From the NCBI GenBank assembly GCA_019359375.1, contig JAHHHL010000029.1, forward strand, positions 1-64,000: a DNA stretch of 64,000 bases. The letters run 5' to 3'. The notes beneath the pieces were generated by a model. That model was not told the origin of the DNA, ran no database searches, and was given only the letters and a program-made list of their open reading frames with translations. Position numbers and translations under genes: made by a program. This stretch comes from Lyngbya sp. HA4199-MV5. GTDB taxonomy: Bacteria; Cyanobacteriota; Cyanobacteriia; Leptolyngbyales; Leptolyngbyaceae. Shown in pieces: positions 31,891 to 50,147 of this stretch (positions are counted from its first letter, which is position 1; every line of letters begins with the position of its first letter).

Positions 31891-32286
31891 ATGTCTCACT
31901 TTAGCCGCATTAAAGTTCAGATCAAAAACGGCGAAACGTTACATCAGGTGCTGCAAGAATTGGGCTACAAGGTCGATTGCAATACTGAGGTTCGCGGGTA
32001 TCAGGGCAACAAAACTCAAGCAGAATACGTCATCCGTCGATCGAATGGCTATGACCTGGGCTTTCGTCGCAGTCATAGCGATAAGCCTGATGGCGATGAC
32101 ACGTATGAACTGGTCGCTGACTTCTGGGGAGCGAAAATCAATCAACAGGATTTTCTCAATCCCATCGTGCAAAACTACGCCCACAAAACGCTGCTGGCAT
32201 CGGTACAAACGCAAGGGTTTGATGTCGAGTCTCAGGAAACGTTACAAGATGGCACCGTGCGCGTCGTGGTTGGACGGTGGGTGTGA
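31891..32286 (+). CDS. DUF1257 / Ycf35-like protein (paralogue)
   Basis: MSHFSRIKVQIKNGETLHQVLQELGYKVDCNTEVRGYQGNKTQAEYVIRR...GTVRVVVGRWV. Confidence 0.85.
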   Translation: MSHFSRIKVQIKNGETLHQVLQELGYKVDCNTEVRGYQGNKTQAEYVIRRSNGYDLGFRRSHSDKPDGDDTYELVADFWGAKINQQDFLNPIVQNYAHKTLLASVQTQGFDVESQETLQDGTVRVVVGRWV

Positions 32287-33145: not shown

Positions 33146-33964
33146 TCAAAGTTTTAGATATTGAGGTTCATTCACAGCTTCCTCTCGCACAAAGGCAAAT
33201 TTTCCAACTGCATCTCTCCAAAGCTTTGCGAATAGCTCCCTATTTTCAGAGGTCTTAAGCCAATTGCTGAGAGTGTAGGTAGAAATGAATGGTTTTTCGC
33301 AATTCACTTGATTAACTGCACACCACTCCTGCAAATTACGGTGAAATGTTAAAGGAATATCAAAACTACCTGTGTACTCCTGCTCATCCCATTCCCAAGC
33401 TAGCTTTTGGTGTAGTAAATCAGCTTCCCTTTCTGCTACTGCTCTAGAAAGATGACGGGATTTTTTCTGAGGTACGTGGCTTTGATAGTCATCCAAATGA
33501 TCCTCATAAAAGCTTTCATAACTTTCGTAGCCCATTTCTCGCCATTCAACATTTTCAATAAAATCCTCAAAGCTCTCACATTCTTCAAATACATTCGTTT
33601 CTAAATTGAAAAATTCATCATCAAATGAGATAGCAGATTGATAAACACTGTAAACACGATCGCCCGGATTTAACAAAATACCGCTTGCGATCGCCGTTTT
33701 TGCCTTTTCCAAATCTACTGATTGCAGCAGTTGATAAGCCGTTGCCCGAACGGTTAGAGCGGAATCATTATTCAACGTAGCAATCAGTAAATCAATGCCT
33801 GCTTCTCCATAGCTCAGTGCCGTGCTGAGGAGGTGCGATCGCTCTTCAGAGGGTGCGATCGCCAGCCGTTGCTGAAGCCCTTCAATACCACCCAATGTGG
33901 CGCTATTAACAGGTGGTGGGGTTTGTCCACCTAAAATTCCATCGGTTGCTTGAGGCTTATCCAT
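33146..33964 (-). CDS. LGG-module/HEAT-like protein, paralogue 1
   Basis: N-term TDGILGGQTPPPVNSATLGGIEGLQQRL + HEAT-like; mid GDRVYSVYQSAISFDDEFF; C-term FVREEAVNEPQYLKL. Confidence 0.75.
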   Translation of the reverse strand: MDKPQATDGILGGQTPPPVNSATLGGIEGLQQRLAIAPSEERSHLLSTALSYGEAGIDLLIATLNNDSALTVRATAYQLLQSVDLEKAKTAIASGILLNPGDRVYSVYQSAISFDDEFFNLETNVFEECESFEDFIENVEWREMGYESYESFYEDHLDDYQSHVPQKKSRHLSRAVAEREADLLHQKLAWEWDEQEYTGSFDIPLTFHRNLQEWCAVNQVNCEKPFISTYTLSNWLKTSENRELFAKLWRDAVGKFAFVREEAVNEPQYLKL

Positions 33965-33985: not shown

Positions 33986-34822
33986 TCAGGTAACTTTGAA
34001 ATAACCGTTGCGTTTAACGATCTGTTCATGGACGACTGCCAATGTGCCTGCGGTATCCTTCCAAAGCTGACTGAGTAGTTCAATCTGCTGCTGTGCTTTG
34101 AGTTCCTCCACCAGTTGCACTCCCATGTCCCACCAGTCTGTTTCCGGTTGCTGTGAAGGCAAGCCGTTGTTAGCACGCCAGACATTTACATCAAATTGAT
34201 TGGTGTGAATCCAATCAAATTCAAACAGGTTAGGGGTATCGCGATCGAGAAGATGTTTTTGATGGCGTTGCTCTGCTATTTCCTCTGCTGTTTCTCTCTG
34301 CAAGTGTCGTGAAACAAGCTGAGGAATTTCCCATTCCTCCATTTCTGCCTCAAACTCCTCTGAATCTAACGACTCCCAATCGATTTCTTTAACTGAGGGA
34401 TGTTCAACAACGTCTGTGTAATCCCCTGCTGAATGGATGTTTTCAGGGATGGCATCACAGCGATAGTACGTTTCATCATCATAGCCAACAGGAATTTCAT
34501 AGACGCAATAAAGGATATCACCAGGCTTTAAGGGAATGCCCGCCGCGATCGCGCTTTTTGCTTTCTCGGAATCTACGTTCTGTACAGCTTGATATGCCTT
34601 TAGGCGAACGGCGATCGCATCATCATCCAGAACTGCTATCAGTAAATCAAGCCCTGGTTCTCCCAGTTCTAAAAGACTTGGCATGACGGCAAGCTTCTGT
34701 TCAACGTCAAGATGTAGAAATCGCTGCTGCAAACCTTCCTGACCACCCAGAACCGCTCCTGTGACAGGCGGGGCAATCTGTCCACCCAGAATGACATCGG
34801 TAGATTGGGGTTGTTGTGTCAT
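33986..34822 (-). CDS. LGG-module/HEAT-like protein, paralogue 2
   Basis: N-term TDVILGGQIAPPVTGAVLGGQEGLQQRF; mid GIPLKPGDILYCVYEIPVGYDDETYY; C-term VVHEQIVKRNGYFKVT. Confidence 0.75.
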   Translation of the reverse strand: MTQQPQSTDVILGGQIAPPVTGAVLGGQEGLQQRFLHLDVEQKLAVMPSLLELGEPGLDLLIAVLDDDAIAVRLKAYQAVQNVDSEKAKSAIAAGIPLKPGDILYCVYEIPVGYDDETYYRCDAIPENIHSAGDYTDVVEHPSVKEIDWESLDSEEFEAEMEEWEIPQLVSRHLQRETAEEIAEQRHQKHLLDRDTPNLFEFDWIHTNQFDVNVWRANNGLPSQQPETDWWDMGVQLVEELKAQQQIELLSQLWKDTAGTLAVVHEQIVKRNGYFKVT

Positions 34823-34834
34823 GTGATCACCAAC

Positions 34835-35806
34835 TTATGCTCTTGGGGTAAGGGTTCCCGCAACGGGGAAGTAGCCATCGCGATCGACGCTTTCTTCATG
34901 GACAAAGGTAAACCTGCCCATGCCAATCAGATTGCAGAATGCTTCTAAAAGCGGGTAGTTTTTCTGATCTTGAAGTTGCTGCAAAACTTCCTCCTGTGCC
35001 TCCCACCGGTATTCGCCCTGAGTATCGTCTTCAGGAATATCTTCATCAACATTATCTTCATCAACATAGTCACTGAGATCAATATCAATGTTGTGTGACG
35101 CACACCAATCTTTGATTGACTGACTATCGTTGCGGTAGAAGCTACACAAATCACCTGTAATATCTTTTAGATAATAGTTTCGAGGATTGAGATTAAGTTG
35201 ATGACGCTGATTAAATGCCGCAAAATCGCCGTTTGTTAAAAAGACTCGATGCAGGTCTTGAGCAACGGTTTCAGCTTGCTCTCGAAAAAGATAGCGTTCT
35301 ACCGGATAAAGTAGTTCTCCGTCATAGCAAAAATCGTGCGCTTCATACGCCTGCACAGAATCTAAAAGCGTGTAATATTCGTCGTCGTAGTCGATCGCTG
35401 AAATATATACCCTGTAAAGCCGATCGCCCTTCTTGAGAGGAATGCCTTTAGCGAGCGATCGTTCTACCCTTTCTGGAATCAATGTGGTTTCAAGCTGTTG
35501 CCACCACTGCGGCATGCCCTCAGCCGCTTTCTGCCCGGTTCGCGCAGAGACAACTTGTTGTAATTGCCTGTATGCAGCCACCCTAACATCTAGCGCAGCA
35601 TCATTCAGTGCCTCCAGTAGAAAATCCACTCCTGCTCTGCCATAGTTGAGCGCATCTGCAAGCGCCTCTACCCGCTGCTCAACATTGCTAGATGTAAAAC
35701 GTTGCTGCAATCCTTCCATGCCACCCAAAATCGCACCACCAGTGGGAGGTGGAACCTGACCACCCATGACCGCATCAGTACTTTCAGGCTGAGAATTCGC
35801 TTTCAT
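34835..35806 (-). CDS. LGG-module/HEAT-like protein, paralogue 3
   Basis: N-term TDAVMGGQVPPPTGGAILGGMEGLQQRF; mid GIPLKKGDRLYRVYISAIDYDDEYY; C-term FVHEESVDRDGYFPV. Confidence 0.75.
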   Translation of the reverse strand: MKANSQPESTDAVMGGQVPPPTGGAILGGMEGLQQRFTSSNVEQRVEALADALNYGRAGVDFLLEALNDAALDVRVAAYRQLQQVVSARTGQKAAEGMPQWWQQLETTLIPERVERSLAKGIPLKKGDRLYRVYISAIDYDDEYYTLLDSVQAYEAHDFCYDGELLYPVERYLFREQAETVAQDLHRVFLTNGDFAAFNQRHQLNLNPRNYYLKDITGDLCSFYRNDSQSIKDWCASHNIDIDLSDYVDEDNVDEDIPEDDTQGEYRWEAQEEVLQQLQDQKNYPLLEAFCNLIGMGRFTFVHEESVDRDGYFPVAGTLTPRA

Positions 35807-35875: not shown

Positions 35876-36745
35876 CTACATTTCCAGTGCTGTCAGGCGA
35901 AGATAGCAGGGGTGATCGATCACATATTCGTGGACAAAAGCGAGGGGGTGATAACCCAGTGGTTGCCAAATTTCACGTAACAAATCATAGCGTTTCTGAT
36001 TGTGGAGACTCGTGAGTACACGGGCTTGGTAAGTCCAATCTGAGTCTTCCCAATCCTTCAATACATCTTCAACAATGACCGCATTTGATTCTACCCAGAT
36101 GTTCAGATCAAATTCTTCTGGCTCACCATCTGGAGAAACATCGCAGATGTTACAGTTGAATTGCTCAAACTTTTTCAGATAAGCTGTTTCGGCTCTAGCG
36201 TCTGCTGCCGTTTGATCAAAAAAGTAGGCAATCAGACTGGGTTCTTCATAGTTGTTGTGAGGCGTATCAAACATATATTCAAACCTGCTTCCAGTAGTGT
36301 CTTGACTGGTGTGATAGAGTGGGTAATCTTCGTGATACCACTCAGCAATATTTGCATGAATATAGTACCAGTCATCTCCATATGAGACAGAAGACTGATA
36401 TACAGCATAAATACGATCGCCTACTCTAAGCGGAATGCCACGGTTCAGAATAGGGGATGCAACGAACGAGGATGGAACAGAAGATGCAAAGGCGATCGCC
36501 TTTAGCTGAGTATATGCTTCTGCACGAACGAGTAAATTTTCATGCTCTAGCGCTTGATAGAGTAGGCTTAACCCATCTTCATACTGCGCGGCTTGTACCA
36601 GCGTTACCAGCTTTTGAATCACATTGCCTTGCTCAAACCGCCGATTCAATCCAGCGATGCCTCCCAACACAGCACCACTCACGGGTGAAGGAAGTTGCCC
36701 ACCCAAAACAAGATCGTGATTCTGCGGTTCAGGCTCGGATGTCAT
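35876..36745 (-). CDS. LGG-module/HEAT-like protein, paralogue 4
   Basis: N-term HDLVLGGQLPSPVSGAVLGGIAGLNRRF; mid GIPLRVGDRIYAVYQSSVSYGDDWYY; C-term FVHEYVIDHPCYLRL. Confidence 0.75.
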   Translation of the reverse strand: MTSEPEPQNHDLVLGGQLPSPVSGAVLGGIAGLNRRFEQGNVIQKLVTLVQAAQYEDGLSLLYQALEHENLLVRAEAYTQLKAIAFASSVPSSFVASPILNRGIPLRVGDRIYAVYQSSVSYGDDWYYIHANIAEWYHEDYPLYHTSQDTTGSRFEYMFDTPHNNYEEPSLIAYFFDQTAADARAETAYLKKFEQFNCNICDVSPDGEPEEFDLNIWVESNAVIVEDVLKDWEDSDWTYQARVLTSLHNQKRYDLLREIWQPLGYHPLAFVHEYVIDHPCYLRLTALEM

Positions 36746-36764: not shown

Positions 36765-37619
36765 CTACTGATAAGCGATCGGCACTCGTTCTAGAATGCC
36801 CGCACCAAAGACCTTGTTTAACTCCAGATAATCCAGATGCACATACCCAATATGACAGTGGCAGGTTTTGTTGGTGCAGGAGCGTTCCATCAGTGCGGTT
36901 TCAAAGGCAGGATCATAGAGGTTACCGATCGCGTCTTTGATGAAATGACAGCGCCGCATGGTGCCATCACCATCCACTGAAATGACCGATGCTCCAGCTC
37001 TACAGGCTTTGCCCAGACTGGGATAGTGATGAGTATTCAATTCATAGAGCGGATCAATGGATTGAAAAAAGGCGCGATCGTCGGCGGTAAGTTGGGGCAA
37101 TTCTGCTTTGACGGCATTAATCCAGAGATAAATGGTTTTAGGAAGCCGTTGACGCAATGTGGTAATTGCTTCTCTGAATCGTGAAAAGCCAACCACACCA
37201 GCGCTAAAGTGGATGCCATACTGCTGCAAATCGTTACACTTTTCTAGAAACTGATCCAGCTTCGACCATTCGGGATGGAATGTTGTCCACAATGTGAGGC
37301 GATCGGGATTTGCCTGTTCAATCCAATCCAACGAACAGGATAAGTTGGTCTGAATTGCCACTTTTCGCACATTTGGTAAATGGGACAACCAAGCCAGGGT
37401 TTGCTGATACCAGGAATGGATCAACGCCTCACCCCAAGGTGTGAACAGAATGGAGAATTCATGCTGTGGATGATCGGCAATCCAGTTGGCAAACTTTTCT
37501 AACGACTGGCGATCGACTCCCAACTCAGCCGTCGTCTGTTGGCGTTTTGCGAAAGGACAATACTCACAACCATAGTTACAGCTTACCAACGAACCGCGAT
37601 AGAGAATGGTGAGGGACAT
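36765..37619 (-). CDS. STM4011 family radical SAM protein
   Basis: MSLTILYRGSLVSCNYGCEYCPFAKRQ (Cx3Cx2C); C-terminal cysteine-rich SCTNKTCHCHIGYVHLDYL; adjacent to STM4012-like gene. Confidence 0.8.
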   Translation of the reverse strand: MSLTILYRGSLVSCNYGCEYCPFAKRQQTTAELGVDRQSLEKFANWIADHPQHEFSILFTPWGEALIHSWYQQTLAWLSHLPNVRKVAIQTNLSCSLDWIEQANPDRLTLWTTFHPEWSKLDQFLEKCNDLQQYGIHFSAGVVGFSRFREAITTLRQRLPKTIYLWINAVKAELPQLTADDRAFFQSIDPLYELNTHHYPSLGKACRAGASVISVDGDGTMRRCHFIKDAIGNLYDPAFETALMERSCTNKTCHCHIGYVHLDYLELNKVFGAGILERVPIAYQ

Positions 37620-37744
37620 GGGGAAAGGATGAGGGATGAGGGATAAAGGATGAGGGATGAAGGATAAATGGGTAATAGGGGAATGAGGGTTTAATTCAAA
37701 ATTCATCATTCTCTACTCCCGACTCCCGACTCCCGACTCCCTAA

Positions 37745-39067
37745 TTATTTCAATGTGTATTGAGTCATAAGCGAGTGAACCTGATAAGAAAAGAGCCAGG
37801 GACCGATCGCGTCCGATCGTTCGATGCCTGCTTCGGTTAACAGGAGTAAATCGGCTTGTAGGCTGGCTAGATGCCAATCCAGGAGTTGTTGAAGTTTGGG
37901 AAAGTCGGCTAAAAGGTTGCTGTGGAAGCGATCGCGGTAGTGGGCTACGCTCAAGCCTTCATTAGATAGTAGAGAGAGTAATAGGAAACGGCGCTGCTGT
38001 TCCTCACGGTTGAGTGCAAAGCCATAACTTGCGGTATCAAAATCGGCATCCTCACGAGTTACATAATGTTCCAGAATGTGACGCACTTCTTTGGCATTGA
38101 CGGCATATTCATTGGAGTAGTGGAGCGATCGCGTGTAGGAACGCGCCCCACAGCCCAATCCCACCATGCCATCCGCCTGACAGCAATAAACCGGACTCGA
38201 CGTTGCAGGCGTATGGTTGGCGCGAAACATCCGCATTGAAACTTGCGTGTAGCCTTCCGCTTGCAGCAAAGCGCGTCCTACCCGATAGCACGCTAAACGA
38301 CTATCATCCCATTCTCGATCGGATAAGCCCAATCCAGTCAAGGGACGCACATAAAGGGGATATAGGTAAATTTCTTCGGGTTGAAATTGGAGTGCCGTGC
38401 GGATGGAATGTAGCCAGGTTTCAATCGTTTGTCCGGGTAGTCCGTAGATCAAATCTAGATTGAGCGTGGGAAAACCCAGGTTGCGAATGCGCATCAGAGC
38501 CGCCTGCACCTGGGTTGACGTTTGACGGCGCTGGGTTGCCAGCACTTCTTGATCGATAAAACTCTGAACGCCAATGCTGATCCGATCGACGTGGCGATCG
38601 CGCAAAAGCTGCAATTTTTCAATCGTAGCCGTTTCGGGCGACACCTCTACCGAAATGGGGATTTCTGCCAGTTTTGCACCCATCGTCTCTTCTGCCACAT
38701 CTAGAACGGCTTCTAAGGCAGCGATCGGGAGTTGTGTGGGGGTTCCGCCCCCTAACGCAAACCGAGCAAATTGCACCTTTCCTAAAGCGGCTTTAATGCG
38801 ATGAGCCTGCCGCTGCACCGTTTTCACATACTGATTCACAAATTCATCATTGTGGTTAACCGTGGTGAACAGATTGCAGAACCCACAGCGCATCTCGCAG
38901 AACGGAATGTGAATGTACAAAAACAGAGCATCTCGTTTTTCCGTTGACCAGATTTCGGAGAGCGATCGCGCTTGCAAAGGACGGTAAGCGGTTTTGTGGG
39001 GATAGGAGTAAACGTAAGTCTGGTAGGGCGATTGGGAGAGTAGGGAAGAGGGAGAGAGGGTGGGCAT
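37745..39067 (-). CDS. STM4012 family radical SAM protein (HemN/HemW-like)
   Basis: SPYQTYVYSYPHKTAYRPL...LFLYIHIPFCEMRCGFCNLFTTVNH (Cx3Cx2C); FARFALGGGTPTQLP. Confidence 0.85.
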   Translation of the reverse strand: MPTLSPSSLLSQSPYQTYVYSYPHKTAYRPLQARSLSEIWSTEKRDALFLYIHIPFCEMRCGFCNLFTTVNHNDEFVNQYVKTVQRQAHRIKAALGKVQFARFALGGGTPTQLPIAALEAVLDVAEETMGAKLAEIPISVEVSPETATIEKLQLLRDRHVDRISIGVQSFIDQEVLATQRRQTSTQVQAALMRIRNLGFPTLNLDLIYGLPGQTIETWLHSIRTALQFQPEEIYLYPLYVRPLTGLGLSDREWDDSRLACYRVGRALLQAEGYTQVSMRMFRANHTPATSSPVYCCQADGMVGLGCGARSYTRSLHYSNEYAVNAKEVRHILEHYVTREDADFDTASYGFALNREEQQRRFLLLSLLSNEGLSVAHYRDRFHSNLLADFPKLQQLLDWHLASLQADLLLLTEAGIERSDAIGPWLFSYQVHSLMTQYTLK

Positions 39068-39146
39068 GGGGGATGAAAATGGAGGGCAGAGGGCAGAAGG
39101 CAGAAGGCAGAAGGCAGAGGGATGAGGGATGGGGGATGAAAAGCTT

Positions 39147-39244
39147 GTAGGGTGTGTTAGCGGTAGCGTAACGCACCAAGGATGCTATCGATGCGTTACG
39201 ACGTTGCTTTAGCGTAGGCATGTCGTAGGCTTTACACACCTTAC
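39147..39244. repeat. palindromic dispersed-type repeat GTAGGGTGTGTTAGCGG...CACACCTTAC
   Basis: gtagggtgtgttagcggtagcgtaacgcacc...gatgcgttacg...tttacacaccttac. Confidence 0.6.
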
Positions 39245-39341
39245 GCAATCAGAATTTACTTTCAAACTCTGTAGCAGCAAACATTGTTGGGTTAGTAGCT
39301 GACGGCTGAAGGCAAATGATAAAGTAAATTCGTCATTAAGG

Positions 39342-40067
39342 TTAATCCGCTGACGATCGCACGTCTCGCATTGCTTGTTTCAATGTCTCGGCAGCTTGTC
39401 GTTGGCGATCGGTCGCTGTTTGATCAATATCATCATCCGTCACAAAGCCAACAGAGGCGCGGTAGTTATTTTTAATCGCTTGCAGTCGATGTTGTGCTGC
39501 TTCTATCTCATGATAATTGTTCACTTTAAGCGGCTGAATGCCTTGTTTGCCAAATTCTCGCAATTTTTCCCGATGACGGGTGAGAAGCTGTTCTGCTGGG
39601 GTGTTGTGAGGAAGTTGCTGGCGATGAACGTTCGGGATGTCTGCGGTTGTATCCATCTCCAGCGTGTTTGATGTCACCAGGAAACTGCCATTTGACAACT
39701 CACTCTCAAAATCGATCGCCTTGCCACCTTTTGGCGCGAGACCAATCCATTGCAACAGGCGCACCAGCCATGATAAGGGAAACTGGTAGCACGCTCCTAC
39801 CGTAGTGCGATCGCCACTGAGCAAAATCCGAATAAACGTGTGATGGGCTGGATTGGTCTGGCTAACGGTGACATCTTCAATATCGGCGATCGAGCGAAAT
39901 CCCAGTTTCTCCAGCATCGTTTGGGTCTGCCGATAAAACGCCTGGTCTAGATTGCGAAAGGTTTTGCCATCCACCTGTTGAAACGTGTGCTGCTGACCAT
40001 ATAGTGATTGCATCGTTTGCAGTAACTTTTCAGCGGATGCCTGGTTCTCTAAGTGTTCGTTTGACAT
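39342..40067 (-). CDS. hypothetical protein within the STM401x cluster
   Basis: 241 aa ORF with no recognised family, between STM4012- and STM4013-like genes. Confidence 0.6.
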   Translation of the reverse strand: MSNEHLENQASAEKLLQTMQSLYGQQHTFQQVDGKTFRNLDQAFYRQTQTMLEKLGFRSIADIEDVTVSQTNPAHHTFIRILLSGDRTTVGACYQFPLSWLVRLLQWIGLAPKGGKAIDFESELSNGSFLVTSNTLEMDTTADIPNVHRQQLPHNTPAEQLLTRHREKLREFGKQGIQPLKVNNYHEIEAAQHRLQAIKNNYRASVGFVTDDDIDQTATDRQRQAAETLKQAMRDVRSSAD

Positions 40068-40099
40068 AAATTTGTGGTTCCAATGGTAGAAGTTTACGG

Positions 40100-40969
40100 T
40101 TATTCTGCTTCTAGTGTTCCCAAGATTTTGCCGTCAGAGAGGTTTGTCGAACGTTCAATCAGTATTTCAGCATAGGGAACAGTCCAGACGATCGGATGAG
40201 CGATCCGGTGTCCGGTATAGCCGTCTTCGCCGTAAGTGGTGCCGTGATCGGAGCAGAGAATGCCGAAGGTAGGAGCACGATTGCGGCAAGCCTGCCATAA
40301 GGGAACGAGGGTGCGATCGATGTATTTCAGAGCGGCGGCGTGGGTTTCAATGGAATCCGTAGTTGCACCAGGCAGATAGAAATAATTAGGCTGATGGAGC
40401 GCAGAGAGATTGATGAATAAGAAAACGCGCTGGTCTTTGGGAAAAGCCTTGAGGCGATCGCACGCCAACGCAACTTGATGTGCTGTGGAATTGCGATCGG
40501 TCACACCTAACTCTGGATTCCAATGCTGCTCTTGAAACAATCCAGGCAAAACTTTTCCAAGCGGATTGCATTGATTAAAAAAACCAACTCCGCCAATGCA
40601 AATTGTACGATATCCCCGGTTTGCTAAACCTTCTGGTAGACTTGCGCCAGTGAGAATACAAGTTTCAGGCGCGATCGTGGTGCTGCCTTCAAACTGGAGC
40701 GCAAAGGGACGGGAATGGTTGCCAGGTGCGATCGGTGTAGGCAGAAAGCCTGCAAAAAAGGCATGGTGAGCCGCATAGGTGAAGCTACCGGGAGAATGAC
40801 GTTTTTCCCATCCAGTATCAGGCAAAAGTGCCACTAGATTGGGAGTGCGCCCAGTTTGCCACAACGATTGAGCCACATCGTAGCGGAGCGTATCAAAGGT
40901 GAGAAAAATGATGTCATGGGTACCGACGATCGTATTGTAATTTGTAATTTGTAGTTCGTTATTCGCCAT
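40100..40969 (-). CDS. STM4013/SEN3800 family hydrolase (alkaline phosphatase/sulfatase-like)
   Basis: IVGTHDIIFLTFDTLRYDVAQSLWQTGRTPNLVALLPDTGWEKRHSPGSFTYAAHHAFFAGFLPTP; CSDHGTTYGEDGYTGHRIAHPIVWTVPYAEILI. Start within ORF 40100..41149 uncertain. Confidence 0.83.
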   Translation of the reverse strand: MANNELQITNYNTIVGTHDIIFLTFDTLRYDVAQSLWQTGRTPNLVALLPDTGWEKRHSPGSFTYAAHHAFFAGFLPTPIAPGNHSRPFALQFEGSTTIAPETCILTGASLPEGLANRGYRTICIGGVGFFNQCNPLGKVLPGLFQEQHWNPELGVTDRNSTAHQVALACDRLKAFPKDQRVFLFINLSALHQPNYFYLPGATTDSIETHAAALKYIDRTLVPLWQACRNRAPTFGILCSDHGTTYGEDGYTGHRIAHPIVWTVPYAEILIERSTNLSDGKILGTLEAE

Positions 40970-41138
40970 TCCTAATTCGCAATTCAGATGAAGCATATTG
41001 GATTTGAAGTTCATCATTTGCATTCGCAATCTATAGCAGTTCCCACTCAAACAAGGTACATCTGACTCCCTCGATACCTTGACTCCCTTAACCAGTCTGT
41101 ACTTCATTGGGTTGGAAATCGCCACAATTAGCTCCAAC

Positions 41139-42302
41139 TCAAAACTCAAAACTCTTCATATCGATTCCTTCCTGCTCCATCAGCATGACAATCTCGGTAG
41201 TGTAGGTGTCTTGTCCTTGCCACGTAATGCCTTGTAGCAAATCACCAAACGCATTTAGTTCCAGAATGTAGTGATCGCGCAAATTGGGGGCAATGAGCAA
41301 ATCAATGCCACAGTAAAAGCTGCGAGGAAAACAGGCAGCGGCTTGTTCACAGGTATGAAGCATTTCGTTCCAACACTCGGTTGATAATGCCTTGGGTAAT
41401 GCAGAGAGATCGCGGCGATCGTTCCCTAAATGTAAATTTGTCATGGGGCTATTTCCAACCCGTAAAACCACCTGCCGCGCTTTACCACCAATGACCACGA
41501 CCCGCGCATCAAATTCTCGCCCTTCTAATCGTGCTTTGGGCATCCACACTTCCACCTGTGCCGATTCCTTGAGTAGAAAATTGATGATGTCAGCAATTTC
41601 TTTGGAGTGAGAATACTGGCGAATTTTGCGGGAGTTGTAGAATCGTACCTCTCCCTGTTCTGCTACCCGCTCAACCGTGGTAATGGCTCGTTCGATGATG
41701 CCGCGCCGCTCGTAGGCAACCACTCCAGAGGCGGACGATCCATGTGCCAGTTTTACAAAGACGCGCTGACAATTCTGTGCTTCCATTTGTGCAATCAACT
41801 GCCCGTAGCTGAGAATGGCAGTGTCATGAGTCAGCGATCGCGGTATTGGAATCTTGTGGTTCGCTAAAAGGCGTTGACATTGAACCTTATCGAACATTGT
41901 GATGATGTCTGCTGGGTGATTGAAGATGCTGCCATGTATTTGTCCTGCCCAGGTTTGCAACTGCTGCCGCCAGCCCAAATACCATTGACGCGGGTAGAGA
42001 ATCCGTCCTTTGTCTGGTTGTAATTGATACGCCTCGATCGCCCCAATCCGCTGATGCTGTCCCGCATCATTCACCGTTGCGCCTGCTGCAATGAAGGCGC
42101 GATCGACCGCAAAATTTCGCTCTGGAGCCTCAAAGCGAAACCAGAGATCTGGTGCATCCCATTTATCCAAAAAACATTGCCCCGCTAGCAGTTTTTCATA
42201 GGGCACCAGTTCAGCCGTTGGTAAGCCCAATCGAGCGAGTGCCTGCTGGAAGAGTGCCACTCGACAAGTTTCAGGATTGGCGATGAGAACAAATTTAAGC
42301 AT
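41139..42302 (-). CDS. STM4014 family protein (ATP-grasp-like)
   Basis: MLKFVLIANPETCRVALFQQALARLGLPTAELVPYEKLL; VFVKLAHGSSASGVVAYE; FYCGIDLLIAPNLRDHYILELNAFGDLLQG. Confidence 0.82.
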   Translation of the reverse strand: MLKFVLIANPETCRVALFQQALARLGLPTAELVPYEKLLAGQCFLDKWDAPDLWFRFEAPERNFAVDRAFIAAGATVNDAGQHQRIGAIEAYQLQPDKGRILYPRQWYLGWRQQLQTWAGQIHGSIFNHPADIITMFDKVQCQRLLANHKIPIPRSLTHDTAILSYGQLIAQMEAQNCQRVFVKLAHGSSASGVVAYERRGIIERAITTVERVAEQGEVRFYNSRKIRQYSHSKEIADIINFLLKESAQVEVWMPKARLEGREFDARVVVIGGKARQVVLRVGNSPMTNLHLGNDRRDLSALPKALSTECWNEMLHTCEQAAACFPRSFYCGIDLLIAPNLRDHYILELNAFGDLLQGITWQGQDTYTTEIVMLMEQEGIDMKSFEF

Positions 42303-42328
42303 GGAGCAATGGCTCATGCAGGTTTAGT

Positions 42329-43122
42329 TTATGTCTGCTGCTGGCTTGCCTGGAGTTGTTGAAGTTCAGCCGTCGTTAAGGTGGTGATGCGAGCGATCGT
42401 CTCCAGTGGAATGTTCTCCTGAAGCATTTTTAGAGCCAGCGATCGACGTTCCTCTTCTCTTCCCTCTTCCCTTCCCTTTTCAATTCCCATCTGCTCAATC
42501 GAGGTGACGTAAGGCATCTGTTTCTCCTGCTCATACTGCTCAAGTTCAACCCGAAATGCCTGTTTCAAGCCCTCCGGCAACTCCATCATCCAATCGAGAA
42601 ACCGGAATAGGTTCAGTATATCTTGCCGCTCATAGCCTTGCTCGTAGAGTTGTCGTGTCAGCCTCAACTTCCATTCCTTGCGAGCAATCGCGTCGTTGCG
42701 AGTCTCCTTTGTTTTGAGATGCGCCATGACTGCAAGGGCAAAGGGATTCTGACTGGCTTCCAACTCAGACCAGCGGGATGCATAGTCCAGCAGTTTGATG
42801 ATGGGAAACCGAAAGGTTGCTTCACAGCCCCACAGCTCTTCTCGAAACGGTTGCTCTCCTCCTGGCTTTGAATCTCAATATGTACTAAAACCCAAGTTTC
42901 CTCTCCAGTAAGCTTCCAAACTTTGACAAGTTTATCGACCAATCGCTTGCCCAGCTCTGCATCCCGCACGACCTGTCGCAACTCCTGATCCAGAAAGCCA
43001 TAGCCCCGGCTCCAGTCAATATCAGTATGAATCTGGGGGAAGAAAAACTGCATGAAATCCTGGAAATAAGTTTCCAGAATATCTTTCCAGGGGCTATCAA
43101 ATTCATCGTGTTGATCAGTCAT
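42329..43122 (-). pseudogene. Rpn/PD-(D/E)XK-like transposase-associated protein, frameshifted with apparent internal deletion
   Basis: N-part MTDQHDEFDSPWKDILETYFQDFMQFFFPQIHTDIDW...VLVHIEIQSQEESNRFEK ends in frame with unrelated sequence; the other frame continues ELWGCEATFRFPIIKLLDYASRWSELEASQNPFALAVMAHLKTKET... to LQASQQQT. Confidence 0.8.
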
Positions 43123-43200
43123 TAGATTGCTGAATGATTGCTGCCTCAGGAGTGCTTTTGGAGAAATTCTGGAAGCGAAGGCAACTGGGATGCGTGGCAA

Positions 43201-44478
43201 CTATTCTGAAACCGCACAATAGCGTTCTTCATACTCCTCGTACTCCTCCACACGTTGCTCGTCTGCAATCACTTGAATCCCTAAAGCACGCAATTGATCA
43301 ATCATGGCTCCCGAAAGATAGCTTTCTGAAACATTGAGGGTTTCCAGATCTCGGATGGCATCACATTCCAGTAGCTTGGCGGCTCCATCGTCTGTGAGGG
43401 TGCCCATTGACAGATCGAGCACTTGCAGTCCAGCCAGCAGGGGCGATCGCACCAGTCTGTCAATTAAATCATCGGCAAACTGGCTATTACGAAGACCCAA
43501 GTAGGTCAAACCGGGAAAGATTAGTTCGTCTAGAATCGCTGCTAAATCTTGCTCCCAGCAGTCGCCGCCATAGTTTTCGCTGCCAAACCAGAGTTCCAAA
43601 TGCTCCAGTGCTGGTAAGTCCCATGCGTAAATTTGCTGGACCGTTTCCCGACTCAAGCCACCAGTTTCGACAATGAGTGCCTTTAAATGTTCATGCACTG
43701 CGTTTTCTGTGGGTGTGAACTGTAAACCCATGCCACCGCGCACTTGCAGCAGTTCTAACTGTGGATATGCCTGCAACACTGGACTCATATCGCTCTGCGC
43801 CAGCCAGGAGATTTCACACTCCTCAGAGGTAATATCGCCAATGAATAAGGCTTTCAGGTTTGGTAGGCGATCGCGAAATGATACCAGCCGTGCCACAAAT
43901 GCCTGCGAAGAGGTATCTCCCGTACAAACCCCTTCCCCGTCGTCCCATGTGCCAAATACCAGTGCCTCAATTTGTTCGGCTTCCGGTGTAGCAAGTAAGG
44001 CATTGAGGCGATTGAACAGGACTTCTGCATCGTCATCATAGTCACAGCGAAACGCATAGGCAACTTGCTGAGGATTGGCTAAGGACTGCTCGGGCTGAAA
44101 TTCTTGCACGTCTCGATCGGCAAAGCGAGTGGCATGATTGCCGCTATAGCCAGGATAGCCAACCAGCCGTTCGGTTAAGTTCCACTGAGGAAGGGCGGGT
44201 AGCGGTGTCTTCGCATCCTGGGGTTGCCGCAAGAGCCAGCGGGCACGTCGCCGAACGGTTTTGGAGCGATCGCCTAGCGCCTGTTCTAAACAAGCTCGTC
44301 CTGCTGTGCCATAGCCCCATGCCTGGTCGAGTGCCTCTAACCGAATCGTGAGATCAGGATTATTTAACTTTTGCTGTATGCCTTCAACGCCACCGAGAAT
44401 TGCCCCTTGAACGGGAGCAGGGTTGTTGCCGCCCAGCACAGCATCTGAGGAGTGAGGATTAGAGTTGGAGTGAGTCAT
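43201..44478 (-). CDS. STM4015 family LRR-like protein fused to N-terminal LGG module
   Basis: N-term SDAVLGGNNPAPVQGAILGGVEGIQQKL; body LKALFIGDITSEECEISWLAQSDMSPVLQAYPQLELLQVRGGMGLQF...LPALEHLELWFGSENYGGD...FPGLTYLGLRNSQFADDL...LQVLDLSMGTLTDDGA; C-term ERYCAVSE. Confidence 0.82.
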   Translation of the reverse strand: MTHSNSNPHSSDAVLGGNNPAPVQGAILGGVEGIQQKLNNPDLTIRLEALDQAWGYGTAGRACLEQALGDRSKTVRRRARWLLRQPQDAKTPLPALPQWNLTERLVGYPGYSGNHATRFADRDVQEFQPEQSLANPQQVAYAFRCDYDDDAEVLFNRLNALLATPEAEQIEALVFGTWDDGEGVCTGDTSSQAFVARLVSFRDRLPNLKALFIGDITSEECEISWLAQSDMSPVLQAYPQLELLQVRGGMGLQFTPTENAVHEHLKALIVETGGLSRETVQQIYAWDLPALEHLELWFGSENYGGDCWEQDLAAILDELIFPGLTYLGLRNSQFADDLIDRLVRSPLLAGLQVLDLSMGTLTDDGAAKLLECDAIRDLETLNVSESYLSGAMIDQLRALGIQVIADEQRVEEYEEYEERYCAVSE

Positions 44479-44694
44479 AGATATGCAATACGGCAGATTT
44501 TTTGTAGAGTTCCCCAAGATGTTAACTCAACATCATTTAGTATCCTTCAGTGAGGCTAAGAACGCATCCAACCACTGCTAGTCGGCTTCTGAGAGAGCAG
44601 GTGAAGGCATTAAGCGGGCATAATTCAGTCGCAAATCGTAACTGGCACGATCAAACTCCAGCACTTTCTACTTCCTGATCGTACTCGGTGCCCT

Positions 44695-45951
44695 TCAGTC
44701 ATTCGCTTCTGAAGGAAGTCCCCAAACCTGAATCGTGTCGTTTGCACCCGTTGCTAAAAATTGTCCATTGGGGCTGAAAAGAGTGGATGTAATGTGAACA
44801 GGACCGTGTCCTTCTAGTGAGTGGAGAAGTTTTCTTGTTTGCCAGTTCCATAGCTTGATTTGACCGGAATGATAGGTTGTAGCCAACGTTTGTCCATCCG
44901 GGCTAAAGGCAGCACCGCGAGCACCTGGGATATAGCTATTGGGGGCACCTACAGGGCGGATATATGCGTTTGCAGGTAGCTCTATCGTGTTGAGCACGTT
45001 CCCGGTTTGAAGGCTCCACTGGTAGACAATACTCTTTATACCTACACCAGCAATGGTCTTTCCATCTGGACTGAAGTAGACGGCGTGGCAGAAAATATCC
45101 TGTTTATGGATCCGTTCTCCTGCTGCTGAGAAAAGAGTGTCATTAATCAGTACCCATTGCCCGTCGGGACTAATTTTGACAGATTCTATGCTGTGCGGCA
45201 TCCTCTCAAAACGGTCAAAAGAGTGCGATCGCTTTGCTTTCAAATCCAAAGCTTTTACTCTATCCTCCTTGGTTCCAACCAACACCGTTTGCTCATCTGG
45301 GCTGATCGCGATCGACGTTAGACTCGCTCTATATCTTCCCGATGTTTCGACTTGCAACGTTTCGATGGTTTGCCCGGTGCTCAAATGCTTGATCCGAATC
45401 TGGTTGTCTGAGTAGGCGAGGTAACAGGTTTTGCCATCAGGACTGGTCGCGATCGCTGTACAAAAGATGAACCCGTGTATGCCTCGCTCGCCTTCGCCTT
45501 GAGACGAAAGTAGGAGCTTTCCGGTGTTCAAGTCCCAAATGTTTAGTGTGTCAACGCTGTGACTAACAAGATGTTGTGAATCTGGGGTGATGGCAATAGT
45601 GTAGTATCCTCTATTGCTTCCATCCAACGTGAAGAGAGGCTGAAAGGAGCGATAGGGGCTGTATTGAGAAACGGCATCTGCGATCGCAGGTTCGTTTCTC
45701 TGGAGCATTTCCCCATATGCTGCCCAGCGCGATTGTCTTGAACCATCTTGCTTGAGTGCTTGCAGAAGTAAATCTAGTCCTGCCTCCCCGTATTGGGTTG
45801 CCTGAGCAGCAGCGGCAATTTGTTGTTCCCAAACACCACTTGCTAACCGTTGCTTAACACCTTCCAGTCCGCCTAAAACCACACCTGTAGGCGGCGCTTG
45901 ACCCCCTAGAACAGCATCAGACGATCGAAGTGAAGCAGAGGAATCAGTCAT
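44695..45951 (-). CDS. LGG module + WD40 repeat protein
   Basis: N-term SDAVLGGQAPPTGVVLGGLEGVKQRLASGVWEQQ; repeats such as GHGPVHITSTLFSPNGQFLATGANDTIQVWGL. Confidence 0.83.
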   Translation of the reverse strand: MTDSSASLRSSDAVLGGQAPPTGVVLGGLEGVKQRLASGVWEQQIAAAAQATQYGEAGLDLLLQALKQDGSRQSRWAAYGEMLQRNEPAIADAVSQYSPYRSFQPLFTLDGSNRGYYTIAITPDSQHLVSHSVDTLNIWDLNTGKLLLSSQGEGERGIHGFIFCTAIATSPDGKTCYLAYSDNQIRIKHLSTGQTIETLQVETSGRYRASLTSIAISPDEQTVLVGTKEDRVKALDLKAKRSHSFDRFERMPHSIESVKISPDGQWVLINDTLFSAAGERIHKQDIFCHAVYFSPDGKTIAGVGIKSIVYQWSLQTGNVLNTIELPANAYIRPVGAPNSYIPGARGAAFSPDGQTLATTYHSGQIKLWNWQTRKLLHSLEGHGPVHITSTLFSPNGQFLATGANDTIQVWGLPSEAND

Positions 45952-46051: not shown

Positions 46052-47050
46052 TCAAAGGAAGCCCCAAACCTGGATGGTGCCGTTAGCACTGCCCGTCACT
46101 GCAAACTGTCCGTTAGGGCTGAAGCTAGCAGAGGGGGCGTGGTGATATTTGTGTGCTGGCATTGAGTGGAGCAATTTTCCAGTGTGCCGCTGCCAAACGT
46201 TGATTGCATCCTTCGCTGCACTAATGATGCGTTCCCCATCTGGACTGAATTTAACAAAGCTTAAAAACCAGGATTTCTGCTCAAAATGATGCTCAAAACG
46301 ACGCGATCGCTGGGTTGTTAAATCCCATACTTCAATGCCATCTTCCCTGGTAGTAACGGCTAACGTTTCTCCATCTGGGCTAACCGCGATCGCGACTTGA
46401 TCTCCTCGTCCCTCCAATGTTCCAACCGTTTGTCCAGTGCTTAAATGCTTCATTTGAATTCGATAGGTTTGGTCAGTTCTTAACTTCCCAACTCGAAAGC
46501 GATTGTCTAGAGAGTAGCTGATAAAGCTGGTTTGCCCATCCGGACTAATGATCATGGTTGTACTAAAATTGTGTCCGTCTCGACGATCGCCCTGGAATGA
46601 GCGTAGGAGGTTCCCGGTTTGCAAGTCCCAGACCTTTAACGTTTCATTGCCACCATTATGAGTTACAAGATGTTGTGAATCTGGGCTAACTGCAAAAACG
46701 ACTTTGTTTTAATTATCACGTTCTTCTAAAGTGAAGAGAGGTTGAAAAGAACGATAAGGATTGTATTGAGAGAGAATACCTTTGAGCGCTGGTTTTGCTT
46801 GATGGATCAGGTTCCAATAAATTGCCCATCGCAGCGTGATCCTTTCTTCTTGCTTCAAGGTTTGCAGGAGCAAATCCAATCCTGCCTCACCATACTGGAG
46901 TGCTTGTGTAACAGCAGCAGCTTGTTGATTCCAAACACCGCTTGCTAACCGTTGCTTGACACCTTCCAGTCCACCTAAAACAACTCCTGTTGGTGGTGCT
47001 AGACCGCCCAGGATGGCATCCTGACTTTTGGGCTGAGCTTGGTCACTCAT
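46052..47050 (-). pseudogene. LGG module + WD40 repeat protein interrupted by one in-frame TAA
   Basis: ORFs 46709..47119 and 46052..46624 are in the same frame; reading through 46709-46711 gives LEERDN*NKVVFAVSPDSQHLVTH, matching the intact paralogue LDGSNRGYYTIAITPDSQHLVSH. Confidence 0.82.
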
Positions 47051-47198
47051 AAATTGGTTGCTTGATTGACAACAATCTCCAGGATGCCCAGAAATCGGTT
47101 TTCTAGGTAATGTTCCCAATCAGCAGCGGCAAATAACCTTGAACTCAGCACCAGCACCTTTCAACCGTCCGCTGCATTTGAATTGTTATGCCGTGCTG

Positions 47199-47468
47199 CT
47201 ACAACTGCTCTAGCAACAGGTCATACTCTGTATGTGAACCAACCCAAAACCAGATCACTGTATCTCCCTCTAACTGACCTACAGCTCGATAGCTTTTGTT
47301 GATACGGGCAGAATAAATTGGCAACTTTGGATGCACTTTCTTAAAACGAAGACTTGGATAGCTTGGATCTGCCCTAAACTGACGATACGCGGTGCGGGTT
47401 TGCTCTTGAACCTGGTTGGGCAAATCCGCAAACAATTTACGGAACTCAGTAGTAGTGCGCGATTTCAC
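47199..47468 (-). CDS. RelE/HigB-like toxin of a type II TA module
   Basis: 89 aa; FRADPSYPSLRFKKVHPKLPIYSARINKSYRAVGQLEGDTVIWFWVGSHTEYDLLL. Confidence 0.75.
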   Translation of the reverse strand: MKSRTTTEFRKLFADLPNQVQEQTRTAYRQFRADPSYPSLRFKKVHPKLPIYSARINKSYRAVGQLEGDTVIWFWVGSHTEYDLLLEQL

Positions 47469-47870: not shown

Positions 47871-49448
47871 CTAATTTAATTTCGCGATCGCTCCCCTCTC
47901 AACCAGCACTGTTCCGGTTAATAAATCGCGCACGGTTGCGACTAAAATGCGGTGTTCGGTGACTTCAAACTGGACGGCGAGGCGATCGATGCCCAATTGT
48001 CCAGGTGGGTCTAACCGTGCCATACAGACCTGTTCGTGGTTGCGCTCTAGCGATCGGTAGGCTTCTTGCTGCCGTAGGGGAGCGCTGCTCATGCGTCCCT
48101 GTGCGTCGTAGGTGACTTCGGCTTCGCTTACATACGCCACTTCGCCAATATCTAACCGAATTTCGGTTTGTCCTTCTAACGCCGCTTGCAGCATCAGCGG
48201 TTCTGCCCGTTGCGCGGGATATTTAGTTCCCGGTTCAAATAATGAGAAATAGCTGTAGGAACGGGAGTAGGGTTCCCACAGGCGAATGGCATAGCCGTGG
48301 CGTAAATAATCTTCCAGTCCCGCAATTTGGGTCAGCGCCAGTGCCCCGTGAGCAACGGCTTCAAACGGTTTGTGAAGCTGAACTCGCTGTCGCCCAAAGT
48401 AGGAAATGAACAGTTGTTGAATGGCTTGAATTTGGCAACTTCCACCGACCAGCAAGACCTGATCAATTTCTGTTTTTTGTACTCCCTTGCGAAAGCCCAA
48501 TGCCAGCACTTCATCGATCGCCTGTCGCAGTTGTTCGATTAATTGGCGCTTCTCCAGCAAGGATTCAAAGTGCGATCGGCTCAGGCTCAAGTCGTGGTAC
48601 ATCAGTTGGTCTTCATCAAACCAGCTTTCTTTCGCCTCGTCGTGGCTGGAGAGCCGGATTTTGAGTTGTTCGGCGATCGCCAGTAAGTTCTGCCAGCCCA
48701 CTTCCCCCAGCGATTCGCGCGGTGTGCCGATCTGCTGCAAGTAATCGTCCACAATCCAGCGATCGATATCCTCACCGCCAACATAGCTATCTGCCTTTGC
48801 CACCACTTCTGCCCGTAGAACCGCCTGTCCGGTTGCCATCGCAGCGGTGCGAACCAGACTGAGATCTAACGTACCGCCCCCAAAGTCTGCCACCAGCACG
48901 GTAGAGCCGGGTCGCTGCACCGCATAGCCCAAGGCAGCAGCGGTCGATTCATCGACAAACTTCACTTCAGGAAAGCCTAATTTGAGCGCCACATCTTGAA
49001 ACCAGTTGAGGTAGCGCTCAAAGGCTCCCACAGGCACGGTGAAGATCAGTAGCGACGGTTCGATCTGGAGCGCTCGCATCGCCTGCCAGATGTGCGCTAA
49101 AAACTCAATGGCGACACTTGCCGCATCGTAAACCTGTCCATCCAGCGTGCGGGCAGGGGGCTGAAAATCGGTGGCTAAGTCTCGCTTGAAGGTGCGAAAG
49201 AACCGTTGGGGTTGCTGTAAGCCTAAGCGCTGCGATCGCACCAGCTCGCCCAGCACCAAATCGTCTGCGCCTCGCACATAGACCAGGCTGGGCACCACTG
49301 CGACATCTTCTGCCCCACCAGAGCTACCGCTGAGGCTAAACAGACGCGACAAACTGGGAAACCTTAGCGTTTCGGGTGCCTGCGTATCGGGTTGCAGAAT
49401 GCTGACGACGGTATTACTGGTGCCAAAGTCAATCGCAACGGCAGTCAT
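47871..49448 (-). CDS. Hsp70 family (DnaK-like) protein
   Basis: VAIDFGTSNTVVSIL; VDESTAAALGYAVQRPGSTVLVADFGGGTLDLSLV; VLLVGGSCQIQAIQQL. Confidence 0.88.
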   Translation of the reverse strand: MTAVAIDFGTSNTVVSILQPDTQAPETLRFPSLSRLFSLSGSSGGAEDVAVVPSLVYVRGADDLVLGELVRSQRLGLQQPQRFFRTFKRDLATDFQPPARTLDGQVYDAASVAIEFLAHIWQAMRALQIEPSLLIFTVPVGAFERYLNWFQDVALKLGFPEVKFVDESTAAALGYAVQRPGSTVLVADFGGGTLDLSLVRTAAMATGQAVLRAEVVAKADSYVGGEDIDRWIVDDYLQQIGTPRESLGEVGWQNLLAIAEQLKIRLSSHDEAKESWFDEDQLMYHDLSLSRSHFESLLEKRQLIEQLRQAIDEVLALGFRKGVQKTEIDQVLLVGGSCQIQAIQQLFISYFGRQRVQLHKPFEAVAHGALALTQIAGLEDYLRHGYAIRLWEPYSRSYSYFSLFEPGTKYPAQRAEPLMLQAALEGQTEIRLDIGEVAYVSEAEVTYDAQGRMSSAPLRQQEAYRSLERNHEQVCMARLDPPGQLGIDRLAVQFEVTEHRILVATVRDLLTGTVLVERGAIAKLN

Positions 49449-49508: not shown

Positions 49509-50147
49509 CTATACAGTGGCTCCTGCTGGCAGGGTGCGGCTGACTTTGGCGGGTATGAGAATGCGATCGCCCTGACGGTAGCCCACAAAGCGAATATAGA
49601 TCGGCTCCTCTGGCTGAAGATCGTCGCTGTCTCCCTGGTGCAGTTGGGGATCATACGCGACAGATGCCCACGGGCTACCGATTGCTTCATAGCCCCAGGA
49701 CTGAACCAGGTTATCCAGCGTCGTAAACATGGCCACGACATTGCGGGCAGGTAAATCGGGCTTACCTTCGACCATGCGCCGCACGGTGGGATACTGGGTC
49801 AGCAATGCCTGCACTTGCCCAAACGCGGCTGCCTGTGTATCTTGTTGTACCTGAGTTGCCTGCTGTTCCAAAGAACTACGAAGGCGCAAACACTGTTGCT
49901 TCAGGGCTTCTACCTGATCTTCCAGCGTTGCCTTCTCTCGCTGCGTGGTTTGCAAGGTTTCGATCGTCTCCTGCAAGCGCTGCTTCAGATCGTGCTGGAT
50001 CTGTTGAGACGTTTGTTTAAGCGTTTCTAACTCATGCTGAAGTGCTGCCTGGGTTGCTTGAGCGCTGCGTTGCAATCGCCAATAAAGCACACCCAAGCCA
50101 GCGATCGCGGTGCCTAACCCCTCGCTCAGCATCCATGCGATGTCCAT
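49509..50147 (-). CDS. GrpE-like nucleotide exchange factor candidate with N-terminal TM and coiled coil
   Basis: Long coiled coil followed by NVVAMFTTLDNLVQSWGYEAIGSPWASVAYDPQLHQ...EEPIYIRFVGYRQGDRILIPAKV. Confidence 0.65.
   Translation of the reverse strand: MDIAWMLSEGLGTAIAGLGVLYWRLQRSAQATQAALQHELETLKQTSQQIQHDLKQRLQETIETLQTTQREKATLEDQVEALKQQCLRLRSSLEQQATQVQQDTQAAAFGQVQALLTQYPTVRRMVEGKPDLPARNVVAMFTTLDNLVQSWGYEAIGSPWASVAYDPQLHQGDSDDLQPEEPIYIRFVGYRQGDRILIPAKVSRTLPAGATV

Follow-up and report, generated by a model that had tools for sequence, protein, structure and literature searches.

An STM4011-STM4015 radical SAM cassette of Lyngbya sp. HA4199-MV5 and the conserved glutamate-ending tail of its leucine-rich-repeat protein: a clue to a possible C-terminal modification or carrier system

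Some ATP-grasp ligases have a protein's C-terminal Glu as their site of action. One of them is RimK, whose target, ribosomal protein S6, ends in Glu and is extended by the enzyme. LysX and ArgX join the amino group of their substrates to LysW, at the C-terminal Glu of its EDWGE motif, and the exchange E54A in LysW abolishes the function of the pathway (PMC10433800). LysW-type carriers have been set side by side with the pearlin carriers, which are loaded by peptide aminoacyl-tRNA ligases (PEARLs) in the biosynthesis of, for example, 3-thiaglutamate and 3-thiahomoleucine (PMC9303977). This work deals with the STM4011-STM4015 cassette, encoded on the minus strand of a 64,000-nucleotide stretch of DNA (hereafter the window) from the cyanobacterium Lyngbya sp. 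HA4199-MV5 (assembly GCA_019359375.1, contig JAHHHL010000029.1), and in particular with the C-terminal tail of its leucine-rich-repeat (LRR) protein, STM4015. The cassette is a confirmed member of a known gene set to which no function has been assigned, and the tail is a new anatomical clue, open to testing, which goes beyond what was observed in the initial annotation of the window, made from the sequence alone.

The five families are named in NCBIfam after the Salmonella loci, and a hidden Markov model search placed all five window proteins above the curated cut-offs, so that both the identity and the completeness proposed in the initial annotation were upheld, together with the minus-strand positions of the open reading frames (ORFs) that it had named. 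STM4015 (43201..44478, with the family assigned over the ORF 43201-44517) scores 298.6 bits on NF038076 against a cut-off of 275; STM4014, an ATP-grasp protein (41139..42302, within an ORF open to 42317), 407.3 bits on NF038074 against 175; STM4013, a hydrolase of the alkaline phosphatase superfamily (40100..40969, ORF open to 41149), 408.6 bits on NF038075 against 250; STM4012, a HemN/HemW-like radical S-adenosylmethionine (SAM) protein (37745..39067), 622 bits on NF006067 against 380; and STM4011, also a radical SAM protein (36765..37619, ORF open to 37709), 404.8 bits on NF038073 against 200. The ATP-grasp-like and LRR-like assignments of the initial annotation are thus those of the family models. 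Within the longer ORFs, the starts of STM4011, STM4013 and STM4014 are probably at 37619 (MSLTILYRG), 40969 and 42302, respectively. The genes stand on one strand in the order 4015-4014-4013-4012-4011, as in most other loci, and in the window this order is broken by a gene for a 241-residue protein and by a damaged Rpn-like gene.

STM4015 ends in a variable acidic linker followed by a conserved heptapeptide with the consensus R-[YF]-x-x-V-x-Glu-COOH, which in the window reads RYCAVSE (43204..43224, minus strand). Of the 116 near-full-length homologues of the main set, 111 have Glu at position -1 (entropy 0.34 bit), 113 have Tyr or Phe at -6 (0.70 bit), 102 have Arg at -7 (0.87 bit) and 86 have Val at -3. 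Entropy in the linker is above 3 bits per position, and acidic residues make up 35% of the 15 that precede the heptapeptide. The five copies that do not end in Glu are extra paralogues at multi-copy cyanobacterial loci. Two later sets, which repeat a few of the earlier genomes, gave Glu at the end of 16/16 homologues selected with the family model and of 10/10 further hits, the latter including duplicate entries; Salmonella's own STM4015 lies outside all these sets. Because one or two of the later hits carry neither Tyr nor Phe at -6 and still end in Glu, the terminal Glu is stricter than the aromatic residue. The tail is also present in the solved structure of a Bacteroides fragilis homologue (PDB 2ra8, Q64V53), to which the family profile (E 4e-78) and Foldseek (4.2e-20) both lead; there the match runs through YSYPMITE, up to residue 354 of the 362-residue construct. 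The other four cassette proteins have no common last residue.

The composition of the genes themselves bears on how the tail is maintained. The terminal Glu is encoded by GAA in 57 and by GAG in 54 of the 111 genes, the stop codons are TAA (65), TGA (30) and TAG (16), and 9/111 genes overlap the next cassette gene. Since the two Glu codons are used about equally, all three stops occur and overlaps are few, selection on the tail acts at the protein level, and the same observations rule out the terminal Glu as a by-product of a start/stop overlap.

Several Nostocales loci of our scan (L023, L046, L050, L051, L052, L054 and L056) hold more than one STM4015 paralogue per cassette together with one STM4014, and their tails vary (RYCSVAE, RYYSVWE, RYSALHE, RYWALHE). 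At locus L163 (genome G766), a second STM4015 about 100 kb away from its cassette still ends in SRYVAAGE.

The side chains that the tails offer limit the reactions that could be common to all of them. In 19 of the 111 tails there is no Lys, Ser, Thr or Cys at all, for which reason an intra-tail ring or Cys chemistry would not be the common reaction; 103 of the 111 have no Lys within the last 12 residues, and two tails also lack Tyr. Glu is the reactive group that STM4015 tails have in common. A tail Tyr or Cys as universal target of the radical SAM enzymes is disfavoured as well, with Phe in place of Tyr in 13 homologues and Cys at -5 in 40/116. The same counts weigh on a graspetide-type pathway, that is, a route to a ribosomally synthesised and post-translationally modified peptide (RiPP) in which STM4014 would make an intramolecular ester or amide in the tail, the radical SAM enzymes would introduce cross-links and cleavage would follow. 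The combination of radical SAM and ATP-grasp enzymes is RiPP-like and the graspetide ligases PsnB and MdnC are among the fold matches of STM4014, but the 19 tails devoid of an acceptor would have no ring partner, Lys is scarce throughout, and neither a peptidase nor a transporter family was seen to be conserved; we consider such a pathway very improbable.

STM4014 is the member that relates the tail to the ligases mentioned above. When its profile was compared with PDB sequences, Thermus LysX (1uc8) came first (8.4e-7) and RimK next. Its structure model (mean predicted local distance difference test score 95.6) gave as top Foldseek match the Sulfolobus ArgX:LysW complex (3vpb, 2.8e-12), followed by RimK, D-Ala-D-Ala ligases and PsnB. 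The probable catalytic residues K184, E348 and N350 are conserved. On the LysX model of NCBIfam the protein reaches 18.5 bits, far under the curated cut-off of 275.6. By profile and fold, STM4014 is described here as nearest to LysX/ArgX and RimK, the ligases that work on a protein's C-terminal Glu. The initial annotation had suggested a peptide or protein modification system; this is consistent with the data, but generic, whereas the Glu tail and the kinship of STM4014 point to a specific substrate and a specific position on it.

The explanation that we favour, which we hold to be evenly poised between right and wrong, takes the cassette for a system that has STM4015 at its centre and that either modifies the C terminus of this protein or uses it as a carrier. 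The proposal of STM4015 as substrate or carrier comes from its conserved Glu tail and from the kinship of STM4014 to LysX/ArgX and RimK. STM4015, with its acidic flexible linker, would present the heptapeptide; STM4014, as a RimK/LysX-type ATP-grasp enzyme, would activate the terminal-Glu carboxylate and ligate to it an amine-bearing building block, in a loading step modelled on LysX/ArgX with the C-terminal Glu of LysW, or on RimK with S6. The attached group would then be transformed by the HemN-like STM4012, by STM4011 with its auxiliary cluster and by the phosphohydrolase STM4013, and in many non-cyanobacteria a HAD phosphatase may join this processing. The product would be either released from STM4015 or retained on it. 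The gene content, the co-occurrence of unlinked members, the tail with its amino-acid-level constraint and the ATP-grasp relationship were obtained directly; we infer the substrate, the reaction, the amine and the order of the steps.

The position of the 4014 and 4015 genes as same-strand neighbours in 68 loci speaks for this proposal, and so does the persistence of the whole set in genomes where its genes are dispersed. Several observations weigh against it. RimK, the D-Ala-D-Ala ligases and PsnB score just behind LysX/ArgX, at 11-16% identity, and at this identity the template modelling (TM) scores of about 0.45-0.7 leave LysX, RimK and other ATP-grasp enzymes undistinguished. The cassette neighbours include no conserved releasing peptidase, and the cassette itself has no conserved gene for amine biosynthesis. 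Besides, no published function for any STM4011-4015 member was found in the literature searched, in keeping with the absence of an assigned product remarked on in the initial annotation. Finally, positions -7, -6 and -3 of the tail are conserved too, as a simple docking motif would explain.

This last point leads to a different view of the tail, namely that it is a docking signal only: the enzymes would bind R-[YF]-x-x-V-x-E-COOH and carry out their chemistry somewhere else, be it the LRR domain, another protein or a free small molecule. Conservation of Arg, the aromatic residue and Val alongside Glu is typical of short linear motifs, and the PDB holds the related ATP-grasp ligase PsnB in complex with its precursor peptide. 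On the other hand, the terminal Glu is the most invariant residue of the tail, and the closest ATP-grasp relatives, LysX/ArgX and RimK, do their chemistry on a C-terminal Glu. Docking alone is a possible but doubtful explanation.

A permanent, RimK-like modification has its first step in common with the favoured explanation. According to it, STM4014 would extend STM4015 at its alpha-carboxylate by one or more amino acids, which would stay in place and tune an LRR scaffold or sensor. RimK (with the RimK:RpsF complex 5zk6) ranks near the top of the fold and profile matches of STM4014, and permanent modification stays a real rival because no conserved peptidase family among the neighbours explains release. 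Nevertheless, plain glutamylation would not call for the two radical SAM enzymes and the phosphohydrolase that constantly accompany STM4014, and we rate permanent modification as unlikely.

The radical SAM enzymes and STM4013 were examined residue by residue. As the initial annotation had described, the CX3CX2C motif is present in both radical SAM enzymes and one of them has additional C-terminal Cys residues. This enzyme is STM4011, and the additional residues are five; four of these are invariant in 68/68 homologues and the fifth is found in 67/68, with a gap in the remaining one. They are expected to hold a SPASM-like auxiliary cluster. In STM4012 the HemN-like radical SAM triad is formed by C57, C61 and C64, which are invariant in 79/79 homologues. 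In STM4013 (numbered from MANNELQ) D26, T64, D205, D218, D241, H242 and H254 are invariant in 85/85 homologues. The position of the presumed nucleophile, assigned by eye against the superfamily pattern, is Thr in 85/85 and not Cys or Ser. C124 of STM4013 is likewise invariant in 85/85.

STM4013 had been called sulfatase-like in the initial annotation; its place among the hydrolases was retained, but a formylglycine sulfatase was not, because the presumed nucleophile is always Thr, and the protein is better described as an alkaline-phosphatase-superfamily hydrolase. A sulfatase system in which STM4011 would act as anaerobic sulfatase maturase for STM4013 would agree with the likeness of STM4013 to the sulfatase/alkaline phosphatase superfamily (below the Pfam cut-off) and with the maturase-like Cys layout of STM4011. 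It is contradicted by the invariant Thr in place of the Cys or Ser that a maturase oxidises, and STM4011 reaches no better than E 0.035 on the maturase model, which makes a sulfatase system highly improbable.

The cassette is sparse yet widespread, and the set is kept together in genomes even when its genes are dispersed. In an even draw of cyanobacterial genomes STM4013 exceeded the cut-off in 5/297, while STM4015 was found in 4/296 genomes of the order of Thaumasiovibrio, in 6/299 of the phylum of Streptomyces and in 1-2 of 300 of the phylum of Niastella. A scan with one genome per species yielded 80 cassette loci in about eight phyla, as taken from the record titles: Cyanobacteriota, Chloroflexota, Actinomycetota, Bacteroidota, Verrucomicrobiota, Pseudomonadota, Bacillota and Myxococcota. 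All five genes are linked in 51 of the 56 loci with at least 7 kb of flank per side, and same-strand neighbourhood is most frequent for 4012-4013 (75 loci), followed by 4014-4015 (68) and 4013-4014 (62). Where a member is not linked, it is found elsewhere in the genome: STM4011 in 7/7 genomes tested, and STM4014 with STM4015 in 6/6, one of these STM4015 proteins falling just under the cut-off. STM4014 and STM4011 were also present in 8/8 genomes newly picked up through a full STM4015; as a negative control, two genomes with partial LRR matches had neither above the cut-off. The co-occurrence proposed in the initial annotation therefore extends to other cyanobacteria and to other phyla, and no sign was seen that these proteins belong to unrelated families.

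A HAD-family hydrolase stands beside 4014/4013 in 16 loci outside the cyanobacteria and actinomycetes (L063, L069, L084, L087, L091-L094, L096-L099 and L104-L107) and is a candidate sixth member. A defence system was also considered and set aside, the PADLOC matches being weak and partial.

The cassette resembles the LysW/LysX (ArgW/ArgX) systems in that an ATP-grasp protein, here one whose nearest relatives are of the LysX/RimK superfamily, stands beside a protein whose C-terminal Glu is almost invariant and lies in an acidic neighbourhood. However, LysW is a zinc-binding protein of about 54 residues, whereas STM4015, with about 280-600 residues, belongs to the LRR proteins and is not a LysW homologue; the tails differ (RYxxVxE against EDWGE), and so do the partners, which are radical SAM enzymes and a phosphohydrolase for STM4015 and LysZ/Y/J/K for LysW. 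The favoured explanation resembles pearlin biosynthesis in that an amide-linked building block is processed at the C terminus of a carrier, and the tmo pathway of the pearlins also uses a radical SAM enzyme (PMC9303977). Unlike the pearlin systems, the cassette has no PEARL-type ligase, no peptidase was seen, and the carrier would be a folded LRR protein. With S6 glutamylation it shares a RimK-fold ATP-grasp enzyme and, in STM4015, a proposed target ending in Glu; unlike RimK, STM4014 has STM4015 as a partner of its own and is constantly accompanied by two radical SAM enzymes.

With respect to other STM4011-4015 loci, the window differs in the N terminus of STM4015, which carries a double-LGG/HEAT module seen only in cyanobacteria, in having the internal 241-residue gene and in being without the HAD gene of the 16 loci. 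The 241-residue protein (39342..40067, minus strand) has no family match in NCBIfam or Pfam, as the initial annotation had supposed, and the only other loci that encode relatives of it are L029 (Stenomitos) and L031 (Pantanalinema). It is for this reason an accessory of close cyanobacterial relatives and no general part of the system; with three loci in all, a role as core member is ruled out. STM4014 and STM4015 are separated by a broken gene of the Rpn-family nuclease/transposase-like type (42329..43200, minus strand), in two overlapping frames (TIGR01784, 37.5 bits, below the cut-off), which is outside the system.

The double-LGG module (DAVLGGxxPPP..VLGGxEG) followed by HEAT-like sequence is the common N terminus of seven minus-strand genes of the window. 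In STM4015 it lies at 44182..44445 (DAVLGG..ILGG). The other six are a double-LGG/HEAT protein with WD40 repeats (44695..45951), an apparently broken double-LGG/WD40 gene (46052..47119, as ORFs 46052-46624 and 46709-47119) and four tandem double-LGG/HEAT paralogues downstream of STM4011 (33146-33964, 33986-34822, 34835-35806 and 35876-36745); in L029 and L031, too, tandem paralogues of this kind follow downstream of the cassette. The window's other double-LGG proteins end differently and are without the STM4015 tail, so that the tail is a property of STM4015 and not of the module. Conversely, Nostocales cassettes often hold several double-LGG STM4015 paralogues, but the module is missing from STM4015 outside the cyanobacteria and in several cyanobacterial cassettes, and the profile match to 2ra8 spans only LRR and tail. 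At E 1e-6 or better the module was found in 33/297 cyanobacterial genomes, some through partial HEAT matches, against 5 with the cassette, and its fusion partners are LRR, WD40, HEAT or FGE/SUMF1-like domains, of which the FGE/SUMF1-like ones were identified by eye from sequence.

An Hsp70-like gene (47871..49448, Pfam HSP70 7.9e-28) and an adjoining gene for a GrpE-like coiled-coil protein (49509..50147, weak GrpE matches and synteny), both on the minus strand, lie beside the double-LGG genes of the window, and many cyanobacteria have such a pair in linkage with double-LGG genes, whether or not the cassette is present. The double-LGG module as general substrate tag of the cassette was rejected: it is absent from many STM4015 proteins, commoner than the cassette and clustered with Hsp70/GrpE-like genes where there is no cassette. 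In cyanobacteria the double-LGG/HEAT fusion may instead tie STM4015 to a separate Hsp70/GrpE-like protein network. Hsp70 and GrpE have been described in GTPase-centred conflict systems, with a GTPase or MoxR-vWA core, by Kaur et al. 2020 (PMC7159879), whose text is without the LGG motif; the double-LGG family could not be assigned to those systems. Diversity-generating retroelements were considered for the double-LGG genes with FGE/SUMF1-like (C-type-lectin-fold) domains, and a crude scan for [YFLM]xxDD-type motifs showed no reverse transcriptase in L143-L154 or in the window. A protein with a ParE-like toxin domain (47199-47468) and a DUF1257 protein (31891-32286) are encoded in the window as well.

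The terminal-Glu tail sits on the sole apparently non-enzymatic member of the cassette, and it narrows an unknown radical SAM cassette to the question of what mass joins that peptide. If the modification is permanent, the cassette would encode a protein modification pathway that is new and occurs in many phyla. If STM4015 is a carrier, the cassette would join LysW-type carriers and pearlins as a third kind of biosynthesis on a C-terminal scaffold. We put forward only tentatively, as less probable than not, that STM4015 could represent a new carrier class of many phyla, a folded LRR protein on whose terminal Glu a LysX/RimK-type ligase, together with two radical SAM enzymes, would build a small molecule; were this true, the LRR carrier class would yield a so far undetected cofactor, signal or metabolite.

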